This document shows, one piece after another, positions 1,369 to 8,097 of a DNA stretch of 35,982 nucleotides. The notes beneath the pieces were generated by a model. It was not told where the DNA came from, did not search any database, and saw only the letters and a list, made by a program, of their open reading frames with translations. This DNA comes from Tepidibacillus decaturensis (GTDB taxonomy: Bacteria; Bacillota; Bacilli; Tepidibacillales; Tepidibacillaceae), in NCBI RefSeq assembly GCF_001561915.1, contig NZ_LSKU01000001.1:1271579-1307560 (forward strand), in the 5' to 3' direction. Made by a program: the position numbers and the translations under genes. Every line of letters starts with the position of its first letter. The stretch's first letter is position 1.

Positions 1369-2622
1369 TTATACCCAACCACGGAATCTAGAAGCTTCTG
1401 CCATTTTACGAACGCCAACCATATATGCGGCTAATCTCATATCTACTTTTCTAGAAACGGATGTATTATAAACATTGTTAAAGGATCTAACCATCACTTC
1501 TTCAAGCTTTTGCCAAACTTCTTCTTCTGTCCAATAATATCCTTGGTTGTTCTGTACCCATTCAAAGTAAGATACGGTTACTCCACCAGCACTTGCAAGA
1601 ACATCTGGTACTAATAGGATATCTTTTTCAGTTAAAATTTTTGTTGCTTCAATCGTTGTTGGTCCATTTGCAGCTTCAACAACTATTTTCGCTTTGATTT
1701 TATTAGCGTTTACTGCTGTAATCTGATTCTCAATCGCAGCAGGGACTAAAATATCACATTCTAATTCTAACAATTCTTTATTTGTGATTGTGTTTTTAAA
1801 AAGCTTTGTTACTGTACCAAAAGAATCTCTTCGATCAAGAAGATAATCAATATCTAATCCATCTTCATTATGTAAAGCACCATAAGCATCTGAAATCCCA
1901 ATGACTTTAGCACCAGCATCATACATAAATTTTGCTAAGTAACTACCGGCATTCCCAAAACCTTGAATCACCACTTTTGCGTCTTCAAGCTGGATTCCTT
2001 TTTTCCGAGCAGCCTCACGAATCATTAGAGCAACACCTTTTGCAGTAGCAGATTCACGCCCATGGGAACCACCTAATACTAACGGCTTACCTGTAATAAA
2101 TCCTGGAGAATCGAACTCTCGAATTCGACTATATTCATCCATCATCCATGCCATAATTTGTGAATTTGTAAATACATCTGGTGCAGGAATATCTTTAGTT
2201 GGACCTACAACTTGGCTTATTGCACGAACATATCCTCGGCTTAAACGCTCTAACTCTCTAAAAGACATTTCACGGGGATCACATATAATTCCACCTTTAC
2301 CTCCCCCATATGGCAAATCAACGATACCGGCTTTAAGGCTCATCCAAATAGAAAGCGCTTTCACTTCATCCTCAGTTACATCAGGATGAAAACGAACACC
2401 ACCTTTTGTTGGTCCAACTGCATCATTGTGTTGTGCACGATAGCCTGTAAACACTTTAACCTCCCCGTTGTCCATTCGAATAGGAATGCGCACGGTTAAC
2501 ATACGTAATGGTTCTTTTAATAAGTCATACATGTTTTCTGGATAACCCAATTTTTCTAAAGCTTCTTTAATAACGATTTGGGTTGAAACAAGCAAATTTA
2601 AATTTTCCTGTTCTTGATCCAT
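1369..2622 (-). CDS. gudB: NAD-dependent glutamate dehydrogenase (Glu/Leu/Phe/Val family)
   Basis: The enzyme oxidatively deaminates glutamate to 2-oxoglutarate and ammonia. The chosen ATG at 2622 gives 417 residues and has GAGGTGG upstream; the longer frame to 2646 has no better site. The family motif PTKGGVRFHP (71-80) and the LPYGGGKGG loop with catalytic Lys109 are present, followed by a Rossmann domain with GFGNAGSYLA. The segment EVKALSIWM lacks the three-residue duplication that inactivates GudB in laboratory B. subtilis 168, so this copy should encode an active enzyme. Members of this family that use leucine or phenylalanine look similar in length, but the overall sequence is closest to GudB/RocG. 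Confidence 0.92.
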   Translation of the reverse strand: MDQEQENLNLLVSTQIVIKEALEKLGYPENMYDLLKEPLRMLTVRIPIRMDNGEVKVFTGYRAQHNDAVGPTKGGVRFHPDVTEDEVKALSIWMSLKAGIVDLPYGGGKGGIICDPREMSFRELERLSRGYVRAISQVVGPTKDIPAPDVFTNSQIMAWMMDEYSRIREFDSPGFITGKPLVLGGSHGRESATAKGVALMIREAARKKGIQLEDAKVVIQGFGNAGSYLAKFMYDAGAKVIGISDAYGALHNEDGLDIDYLLDRRDSFGTVTKLFKNTITNKELLELECDILVPAAIENQITAVNANKIKAKIVVEAANGPTTIEATKILTEKDILLVPDVLASAGGVTVSYFEWVQNNQGYYWTEEEVWQKLEEVMVRSFNNVYNTSVSRKVDMRLAAYMVGVRKMAEASRFRGWV

Positions 2623-2648
2623 GATTTTACCACCTCGGAAAAACAAAT

Positions 2649-2674: not shown

Positions 2675-2725
2675 TTGTCAGGTTAAGTATACACCCTTGT
2701 TTTTAGATTGAGAAGACATTTTATT

Positions 2726-4219
2726 CTAATCTGCATCTTTTAAAATTTCTGAAAATAATCCTATTGTTTTATTAAAGCTAAACTGTATTTTTCCAATTGA
2801 GCCATTACGATTCTTTTTTAATTCAATAGTGACAAGTGAATTTTCTTCTTTGTTATTTCCTTCTAAATGGATGTAACTATCAATAGAAGCCACTAATTCC
2901 GGGGGGAAATTTTCTTCTTTTCCTGTTGCTGACAGTAAAATAGGTACTCCCCATTGCCTAGACCAATGGTGTAAATTATAGGTTACATGCAGCTGCTGTT
3001 CATGGGCAGGCATTGAAAGCCCTTGTTTTAAATGAATCCTTTGAAGGTGGTCAAAGATTATAACAGGCTTTTTATGTAGCTGAAGTAAAATTTTGTTTAG
3101 AATGATCGCAATATCTTCTAAAGATGTATGAATATTTGCATCTAAGGTCCAAATGTTTTTAGCAAGGGTTGAATAGGTTTGATTTGCTAATTGAATATCT
3201 TGCACGGGAACTTGGCCTGAAAAAATTTGTTGGGTAGAACAACCAGTAAACCTCGACATGCTTCTAACCCATAATTCAAATGAGGTCATATCCCAAGAAA
3301 TATAAAGCACAGGTACATTTGTTGCCATTTGGTCTGTTAATTGTTTTAAGAAGGTTGTTTTCCCAACAGAAACAGCACCACCAACCAAATACAAGCCTTC
3401 TTGTAGTCCCCCTACTAATAATTCATCTAAGGCCTTAAATCCAGTTTTAATTCCACTTAGTTTTTTATTGTATCGTTTGATATATTCTTCTTGAAATAGA
3501 ACTAGATTTGAACTATCTGGAGCAATTGGTGATAACAAGCTTTCTTTCAATGTTTTATTAATTATATTTATAAATTCATCCGAAGGATTTTTCATTCGAA
3601 TAAAGAAGTCATTTACATCTTTGAACCCTTTTGGCAGATGAATAATATACAACTCTTTTATAACTGATTCTAACCATTTTGCCACTCTGATCGTTTCTCT
3701 TCTACCAATTTCATCATTACCAAAACAAATAAAAACTCGCTTATTCTCCATTTTAGTTAGTAATTGATCATTTAATTGGCTGTTTATCATACAAATACTA
3801 GGTAATTTTGCTTGCTCTAAAGACAACACATCAAAAATAGAATTACACAGAATCACATCATCTACCTGTTTTAGAACCATTTCATTAAAAAATACATCCT
3901 CGACACCAATTAAAGATTTAAATTTTGGCTCTCTACCATCGATACTTCTCCCAATTAAATCGACGACATCCTGTTCCATCGTCTGCAAAGGAAAAATTAT
4001 CCGATTGTGAAAATATCCGTTAAAACCTTTGTCATTGGGCTGAAATCCTATCATATCTTTTTCAAAACCAATTAAAAATTTCTCTATTATTTCTGATTGA
4101 ATTCCTCTATCCTTTAAATAATCAAGTGCATCCTGAGTTAATTGGCCACGATAATATTGGACCATTTGAAGTAATTCTTTAGATGAGATGTTTCTTTGCA
4201 TAATTTGATCAAACGTCAT
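2726..4219 (-). CDS. Primase-helicase-like protein (T7 gp4/Twinkle architecture) with degenerate Toprim domain
   Basis: This 497-residue protein joins a DnaG-like core to a DnaB-like RecA helicase domain. Residues about 35-120 follow the DnaG catalytic-core N-terminus (YLKDRGI, then RIIFPL and GRSIDGREPKF). Residues about 121-210 follow Toprim and end in a gp4-like KDVNDFF. There is no N-terminal CHC2 zinc finger. The Toprim site is decayed: the invariant Glu of VEG is replaced in CNSIFD (125-130), and the DxD motif reads GND (167-169), so primer synthesis is unlikely. The helicase part has Walker A GGAVSVGKTT (280-289), Walker B IIFDH (Asp390) and a KKNRNG finger (about 478-483). However, the H1a glutamate is Asp310 and the H3 glutamine is missing (LSATG). 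It has its own GGGAGGG ribosome binding site and a weak promoter, TTGTAC-18-TAAAAT. No phage genes flank it. The cellular role is unknown. Confidence 0.75.
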   Translation of the reverse strand: MTFDQIMQRNISSKELLQMVQYYRGQLTQDALDYLKDRGIQSEIIEKFLIGFEKDMIGFQPNDKGFNGYFHNRIIFPLQTMEQDVVDLIGRSIDGREPKFKSLIGVEDVFFNEMVLKQVDDVILCNSIFDVLSLEQAKLPSICMINSQLNDQLLTKMENKRVFICFGNDEIGRRETIRVAKWLESVIKELYIIHLPKGFKDVNDFFIRMKNPSDEFINIINKTLKESLLSPIAPDSSNLVLFQEEYIKRYNKKLSGIKTGFKALDELLVGGLQEGLYLVGGAVSVGKTTFLKQLTDQMATNVPVLYISWDMTSFELWVRSMSRFTGCSTQQIFSGQVPVQDIQLANQTYSTLAKNIWTLDANIHTSLEDIAIILNKILLQLHKKPVIIFDHLQRIHLKQGLSMPAHEQQLHVTYNLHHWSRQWGVPILLSATGKEENFPPELVASIDSYIHLEGNNKEENSLVTIELKKNRNGSIGKIQFSFNKTIGLFSEILKDAD

Positions 4220-7153: not shown

Positions 7154-7789
7154 CTATGCTCTTGGATGAGTATTTTTATAAATATTTTGCAATCTTTCCT
7201 TAGTCACGTGGGTATAAATCTGTGTTGTTGAAATATTCACATGACCCAATAATTCCTGAACTGAACGCAAGTCTGCTCCTGCATTTAACAAGTGTGTTGC
7301 AAACGTATGACGTAATGTATGAGGACTGACCTTCTTGGAAAATGATAAGCCTCGAACATACTTATCAATCATTCGGCGGACACTTCGATCTGTAAGGCGT
7401 TCCCCATTTTTATTTAAAAAGAGGGCTCGTTCTATTTCAATAGGTTTCAATTTTGGTCTAGCATCTTCTATATAATGATGTAAGGATTGGATTGCAAATC
7501 TACCTAAGGGAACATATCTTTCCTTAGCCCCTTTTCCAAATACTAATGCTGTTCCATTCACCAAATCGATTGAGTTTAAGTCTAGACTAACTAATTCACT
7601 TACCCGAATACCACTAGCATACAGGACTTCAATTATAGCTCTATCCCTAATACCCAAAGGCTTTGTAAGGTTAGGAGCATCAATCAGTTCCTGTATTTCT
7701 TCAGGGTACATAAAATGAGGCAACTTCTTTTCAATCTTTGGTGTTGATACCATTTTAAAAGGATTTGTTTTAAGATAATTCTCTCTCAT
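7154..7789 (-). CDS. xerC: Tyrosine recombinase XerC, C-terminal catalytic part (split gene)
   Basis: This frame of 211 codons carries the whole catalytic domain of XerC (CodV), which with XerD resolves chromosome dimers at dif. All six active-site residues are present in this frame: Arg62 (ASGIR), Lys86 (GKG), His157 and Arg160 (HTLRH), His183 (LGH) and nucleophile Tyr192 (TQIYTH). It begins [12 protein letters not shown], which aligns to the interdomain linker of full-length XerC. Its ATG overlaps the stop codon of the upstream frame as TAATG, with no ribosome binding site of its own. Joined to the upstream frame by a -1 shift it gives a normal 298-residue XerC. It may be made by reinitiation or frameshifting, or the split may be a sequence error. 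Confidence 0.85.
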
Positions 7790-7795
7790 TAAAAA
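7789..7795 (-). other. Frameshift junction in xerC (T TTT TAA)
   Basis: Read on the minus strand, the upstream frame ends GAT TTT TAA. A -1 slip of the last Phe codon within the run of five T gives TTT then TTA ATG AGA, which restores the expected XerC sequence. Adding one T to the run gives the same protein. The stop and the downstream ATG overlap as TAATG. Confidence 0.75.
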
Positions 7796-8049
7796 TCGAA
7801 AAAAGTTCTTAAACTTGAAAGCTTTCTTGCTATTGATTTACGAGCATAATGTTTTTCATTTAGTAAGGCTAAATAATTTCTTACATCAAGATAAGTCACT
7901 TCTTGATAAGTATTTTTTCCTTTTGATGTCATAAATAAAGTGAAGGCCTGTATATCCTTTAAATAATTTTGTAATGTATGAGTAGATACATTTTTTTCAA
8001 TTTGCAAATACCCTTGAAATTCTATTAAATATTGATCGATCTGATTCAT
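7789..8049 (-). CDS. xerC: Tyrosine recombinase XerC, N-terminal core-binding part (split gene)
   Basis: This 86-residue product is the SAM-like core-binding domain of XerC, starting MNQIDQYLIEFQGYLQIEKN and ending in ARKLSSLRTFFDF, which in intact CodV continues as FLMRE into the catalytic part. The start at 8049 has AGAGGGGA at a suitable distance; the longer frame to 8079 has no better signal. The stop falls at the domain boundary, so each frame contains one complete folding domain. It lies 48 bp after trmFO and opens the xerC-hslV-hslU-codY set. Whether the chromosome truly carries the split needs read-level confirmation. Confidence 0.8.
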   Translation of the reverse strand: MNQIDQYLIEFQGYLQIEKNVSTHTLQNYLKDIQAFTLFMTSKGKNTYQEVTYLDVRNYLALLNEKHYARKSIARKLSSLRTFFDF

Positions 8050-8097
8050 TTTTTGTCCCCTCTTATGTAAAGGCAACATAATATTAACATAGTAATG

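Follow-up and report, generated by a model that had tools for sequence, protein, structure and literature searches.

A gp4-type primase-helicase homologue fixed in the chromosomes of several spore-former families, probably with a new function

The gene and its chromosomal setting

The stretch of DNA analysed here (the window, 35,982 nucleotides from Tepidibacillus decaturensis) carries on its reverse strand a gene for a primase-helicase-like protein, hereafter HEL, which is followed by gudB and a probable promoter of the latter.

2726..4219, minus strand: HEL coding sequence, primase-helicase-like protein of 497 aa, with an ATG start, no interruption, Pfam matches and homologues in Bacilli
1369..2646, minus strand: gudB (glutamate dehydrogenase), conserved downstream neighbour; its true start is probably near 2622
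2686..2714, minus strand: probable gudB promoter just past HEL, TTCTCA-17-TATACT, a pattern match only

The reading frame is intact, running from an ATG at 4219 to a stop at 2726 (497 codons), and its product is matched by the Pfam models DnaB_C (4.5e-27), DNAG_N (9.4e-10) and Toprim_2 (4.3e-09), as well as by a PHROG primase/helicase family (1.8e-26). The architecture is that of T7 gp4 and Twinkle, with a Toprim primase domain N-terminal to a DnaB-type RecA domain, minus the zinc domain. In other words, only some 50 amino acids precede the invariant G51, and these contain no Cys motif, as against the 77-210 amino acids found ahead of the equivalent position in mobile-element relatives. The initial annotation had described such a layout, and the profile matches bear it out. 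An N-terminal zinc-binding domain is a feature of gp4 that is absent from metazoan Twinkle.

HEL falls below the cut-offs of the established families to which it might be assigned: 73.5 bits against 385 for DnaB (TIGR00665), 59.9 against 283.6 for DnaG (TIGR01391) and 42 against 403 for RadA. Moreover, the chain stops after the RecA domain, with no Lon-like C-terminal domain. The T. decaturensis genome contains a separate, intact dnaG (505 bits) and a 452-aa DnaB-type ORF at C1:2673637, which also matches in the HEL search; HEL is therefore neither the cell's replicative enzyme nor its primase. As regards anti-phage defence, where membership of the known PADLOC proteins requires a full-length model match together with partner genes, HEL is matched only by the DnaG-like part of a reverse-transcriptase-associated model (7.5e-15); no reverse transcriptase is seen among the neighbouring ORFs (from the ORF list, the PADLOC search covering HEL), and HEL does not belong to these proteins. 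Literature searches returned nothing on the family.

Of 399 Bacilli genomes, 19 carry a full-length homologue, as do three Paenibacillus, giving 22 Bacilli members which divide into a main clade (n = 18) and a divergent set (n = 4). Outside the Bacilli, HEL is found in two genomes (G417 and G421, the deep members), each the sole sampled member of its class, which brings the number of members compared to 24. ORF maps and tblastn reveal a conserved gene order, mecB-(ddl)-HEL-gudB-ansA-prsW-sleB-ypeB-pilZ-cmk-plsC-rpsA, in which mecB lies directly or nearly upstream of HEL in 17 of the 18 main-clade members, and gudB downstream in 14 of the 18 and in all three members of family f36; in f48 a prsW match lies 3.3 kb downstream. 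Only in the window does a codY-clpYQ-xerC-trmFO-topA block stand upstream of HEL in place of mecB and ddl. The mecB-(ddl)-HEL-gudB order is ancestral, and the adjacency to codY is a rearrangement in the window's genome. The picture originally drawn of a gene standing alone beside codY is thus accurate for this genome only, and HEL is no orphan, since it has conserved neighbours in mecB or ddl upstream and gudB downstream. The same mecB-(ddl)-gudB site is present without HEL in six relatives (G004, G022, G052, G055, G073 and G093).

Terminator-like hairpins lie between mecB or ddl and HEL in many leaders, and just after the HEL stop many relatives (L031-L038, L068 and L069) contain a TGTATACT or TTATACT element, often GTGTATACT, in which the TATACT looks like the -10 of a gudB promoter. 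With a hairpin ahead of it and this element behind it, HEL has the appearance of its own transcription unit. A functional link between HEL and gudB is unsupported, since gudB is apparently transcribed from a promoter of its own and four main-clade members keep HEL without gudB following. ORFs of ~510 aa in f36, considered as new neighbours, were rejected as they are antisense to gudB.

Elsewhere at these loci, family f11 encodes a short RelA/SpoT-domain protein (about 280 aa) just upstream of mecB (L035, L036, L039 and L070-L072). In the window, a T-run near 7789-7791 carries a frameshift that divides xerC/codV (7154-8079, minus strand) into overlapping ORFs of 96 and 211 aa, reflecting either a pseudogene or a homopolymer sequencing error. 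Just left of the window in the same genome (L041, 8210-9858 and 7484-7987), the prsW matches are spread over two frames that overlap and sleB has a short ORF, a pattern which hints at more frameshifts in the assembly, real or from sequencing.

The Toprim site and the history of the family

The primase half of HEL contains the following features.

3590..4138, minus strand: DnaG-type RNA-polymerase domain including Toprim (aa 28-210), aligned to S. aureus DnaG 4e2k and DnaG 2au3; the model aligns to gp4 from residue 22
3842..3844, minus strand: lost Toprim glutamate position (N126), from alignment of members and relatives
3713..3721, minus strand: DxD remnant G167-N168-D169, first Asp lost, from alignment of members and relatives

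Ten gp4-type proteins served for comparison, drawn from small plasmids, viral contigs, T7 gp4 and a second, 710-aa copy in G026. The Toprim glutamate is present in all ten of these mobile-element relatives and in both deep members, and is replaced by R, N, K, S or G in 22/22 Bacilli members. The first Asp of the DxD motif behaves in the same way, being D in the ten relatives and the two deep members, and G, P or S in every Bacilli member. These two losses (N126 and G167 in HEL) had been read by the initial annotation from the one sequence; the homologues that related genera carry at the corresponding locus have them in common. Alignment with the ten intact relatives rules out catalytic residues that are displaced rather than lost. 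D130, D169 and D201 are retained in HEL, the first two across the Bacilli members. As no Bacilli member retains the metal-binding Glu or the first DxD Asp, the Toprim site appears unable to make primers, and priming by HEL is excluded as far as sequence allows. The emptied metal site carries a nearly invariant R-R-E, and new invariant residues appear, among them W309, W317, E244/E245 and E175.

The 710-aa protein of G026 (L040 7159-9291, on another contig from HEL) has the Toprim E, DND and an ESG loop, together with a long N-terminus bearing a Cys motif, and is probably on a mobile element.

T7 gp4 (5ikn, 1q57) resembles HEL in joining a DnaG-type Toprim domain, a linker and a DnaB-type RecA domain in one chain. 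An AlphaFold2 model of HEL (mean pLDDT 74, built with 7 sequences, most of the first 110 residues being poorly modelled) aligns with gp4 (5ikn_D) over 424 residues spanning 22-495, with Z 23.3; the rmsd of 8.2 shows that the two domains are placed differently relative to each other. HEL differs from gp4 in lacking the zinc domain, the Toprim Glu, the first DxD Asp and the LRGSG ssDNA loop, and in being chromosomal at a conserved place.

In the tree, which is midpoint-rooted only and does not include Twinkle, support of 98/100 sets the HEL clade apart from the proteins of mobile elements, and its grouping is with the plasmid-type branch rather than with T7 gp4. The nearest intact relatives are the plasmid-type 'DnaB-like helicase C-terminal domain-containing' primase-helicases (pSMQ308, pSMQ-316, p29887 and pSTERM02), which share 22-28% identity with HEL over most of its length and, unlike HEL, have the Toprim E, DND, an ESG loop, mostly longer N-termini and a location on small plasmids. 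The Bacilli members form a clade of their own (100/99), outside which G417 and G421 branch, their mutual order being weakly supported (89/85). Both deep members have the Toprim E and DxD intact but are already without a zinc domain and without the ssDNA loop discussed below, and it is these two deep-branching intermediates that order the losses: the simplest account puts the loss of the zinc domain and loop before that of the Toprim site, which would have happened a single time, on the branch leading to the Bacilli. HEL may have been transferred horizontally between classes. In G417 (L117 6845-11186) the deep member follows, on the same strand, DnaB_2 (DnaD-like), IstB/DnaI-like loader and O6-methylguanine methyltransferase ORFs, a setting that may be concerned with replication or repair.

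Identity between HEL and its closest mobile-element counterparts is about 21-29%: a Streptococcus element and plasmid reach about 28% over 95% of its length, and in viral contigs the best match, which covers part of HEL, stands at 29%. The search for close viral or plasmid members turned up no near phage homologue in which the motifs are intact. Given this level of identity, a GC3 (0.249) like that of the neighbouring genes (0.22-0.27) and the age of the synteny, a recent capture from a phage or plasmid is rejected.

The pairs examined are under purifying selection, with dN/dS of 0.05-0.11 for three close pairs and 0.14-0.17 for two pairs in which dS is near saturation, and no internal stop occurs in any of the 24 members. 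In this regard, the low dN/dS indicates that HEL is useful where it is kept. The part in DNA maintenance or stress first proposed for it is a putative one; its frequent losses (it is present in 6/11 genomes of family f11 and 2/39 of f22) show it to be dispensable and, together with the apparently separate transcription unit, argue against a core role. The earlier description of HEL as a retained, domesticated protein, primase-dead by sequence, is upheld by the shared substitutions and the shared locus; HEL is a fixed chromosomal gene in several spore-former families, probably with a new job.

The helicase half and its missing ssDNA-contact loop

The second half of the protein is a RecA domain of the DnaB type, with these landmarks.

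2744..3454, minus strand: DnaB-type RecA domain (aa 256-492), DnaB_C match and fold match to DnaB 4esv
3356..3379, minus strand: Walker A (G281-T288), K287 invariant in 24/24 members
3290..3295, minus strand: W309-D310, family-specific Trp and H1a acid (Glu to Asp), from alignment
3050..3064, minus strand: Walker B (up to D390), D invariant in 24/24 members
2879..2932, minus strand: shortened ssDNA-contact loop (aa 430-447) with no (R/K)ESG motif, from loop lengths and the model
2801..2818, minus strand: KKNRNG arginine finger (R471), from alignment

The Walker A Lys, Walker B Asp and Arg finger of the gp4/Twinkle class are thus all present (K287, D390 and R471), as had been recognised at the outset, along with the Asp at the H1a position (D310). 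The main clade is uniform here: W309 is Trp in 18/18, the H1a acid is kept in 18/18 (D in 15, E in 3) and the finger is Arg in 18/18. Among the four divergent Bacilli members, position 310 is Gln or Gly, and in two of them the finger is K or L. From the motifs that are kept, ATP binding by HEL is probable, and ATP hydrolysis likely in the main clade. The absence of the H3 Gln, also noted at first, is real; as a mark of decay it was dropped, since intact plasmid relatives carry Ser at the same position.

What had been overlooked is that the ssDNA-contact loop is deleted across the family, such that the initial picture of a retained helicase was too generous. The stretch between H3 and the IEQDAD-like motif is 18-23 residues in Bacilli HEL and 23-26 in the deep members, as compared with 29 in plasmid relatives (with FKESGxIE) and 35 in T7 gp4 (with LRGSG), and neither an ESG nor a GS motif is left in any of the 24 members. 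In the HEL model the loop forms a short helix (440-445, pLDDT about 80). The RecA domain of the model aligns with DnaB 4esv over 250 residues (Z 27.9, rmsd 2.6); HEL differs from DnaB in that a Toprim domain stands where DnaB has its N-terminal domain, and in lacking R381/E382/G384, the residues through which G. stearothermophilus DnaB contacts ssDNA (PMC6391071). In Twinkle the contacts are made by G455/S456/A457 of LoopD1 and R440/K441 of LoopD2, and R440A and S456A each abolish DNA binding (PMC9723800). As the loop that holds these contacts in DnaB, gp4 and Twinkle is deleted, normal DNA translocation or unwinding by HEL is improbable.

A proposed role and its competitors

The familiar example of a host adopting a phage-type primase-helicase, and in animals stripping it of priming, is mitochondrial Twinkle; HEL looks like a second, independent and bacterial takeover of this kind that goes further, in that the DNA-gripping loop has gone as well. 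Like HEL, metazoan Twinkle is a gp4-related host protein which has lost its priming site and kept its RecA domain (PMC9723800, PMC3610141); it differs in being a helicase that keeps LoopD1 (GSA) and the R-K contacts of LoopD2, both of which HEL lacks.

The explanation that we prefer, with belief and doubt in equal measure, is that HEL is a domesticated, priming-dead and non-translocating RecA ring or oligomer, switched by nucleotide and derived from gp4-type primase-helicases of plasmids or phages. Such an enzyme, from a small plasmid or phage, would have entered the mecB-gudB interval in the ancestor of several Bacilli families and then been inherited vertically, with many losses. The RecA half would still bind ATP and probably assemble, as suggested by Walker A and Walker B and, in the main clade, by the acidic base and Arg finger, so that the ATP state might set the assembly of the protein with no normal translocation or unwinding. 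The old primase domain, its metal site re-decorated by R-R-E, could then act as the module through which a partner protein or a nucleic acid is bound. A more specific version, offered tentatively and on the unlikely side, is that an undescribed, vertically inherited family has been stripped stepwise from a gp4-type enzyme into an ATP-switched, non-translocating ring, the zinc domain and ssDNA loop going first, then the Toprim metal site, and then, in divergent branches, the ATPase base, and that what was the primase pocket now accommodates a different ligand, for example a nucleotide signal or a replication partner. HEL would in any case offer a tractable model of a replication motor turning into something else, with culturable relatives in, for example, Paenibacillus.

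It is possible, if unlikely, that HEL is a working Twinkle-like helicase with a dead primase, its RecA ring translocating by other contacts during repair or replication restart. Conservation of Walker A, Walker B, the H1a acid and the Arg finger throughout the main clade suggests that hydrolysis is still selected and could drive movement, against the non-translocating reading, and the two-domain fold match to gp4 and Twinkle points the same way. Moreover, metazoan Twinkle, itself primase-dead, acts as a helicase despite its reduced contacts with DNA (PMC9723800), and works with a shortened LoopD2, such that a shorter loop need not abolish DNA binding, for which other surfaces could serve. Against this stand the loss of the ssDNA-contact loop in 24/24 members, the replacement of the H1a acid by Gln or Gly in divergent Bacilli members, with purifying selection persisting in the three that could be tested, and the absence of the gene from most relatives, which makes it no core replication factor.

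It is quite unlikely that HEL is an accessory ATPase like RadA or KaiC, one that takes part in recombination, competence or repair by binding to dsDNA or to a repair partner without unwinding. RadA/Sms shares the DnaB-type RecA core with the HEL model (Z 23.2), and the usual neighbour mecB is annotated as a MecA-type competence regulator. However, RadA and KaiC are among the weaker profile and structure matches, the best being DnaB and gp4; HEL has KNRNG rather than the KNRFG of RadA, and has neither its zinc finger nor its Lon-like domain; and the relation to mecB is positional, with a terminator-like hairpin usually between mecB or ddl and HEL.

The genes sleB, ypeB and prsW at the locus suggest a sporulation or germination protein, which we consider very unlikely. 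All 19 HEL-bearing Bacilli genomes have spoIVA, as compared with 266/399 overall (Fisher p 4e-4, uncorrected for relatedness), but this association is confounded by ancestry. In the same sample, 247 spoIVA-positive genomes are without HEL, the same locus also exists without HEL in spoIVA-positive genomes, and G421 (94% complete) has HEL with no spoIVA match.

Finally, a decaying, functionless relic of a plasmid or phage primase-helicase, as might be supposed from the loss of several catalytic residues and from the absence of the gene in close relatives (5/11 f11 genomes, for example), is largely refuted and highly implausible, given the uninterrupted frames, the dN/dS of 0.05-0.17 and the new clade-specific invariants W309, W317 and E175.
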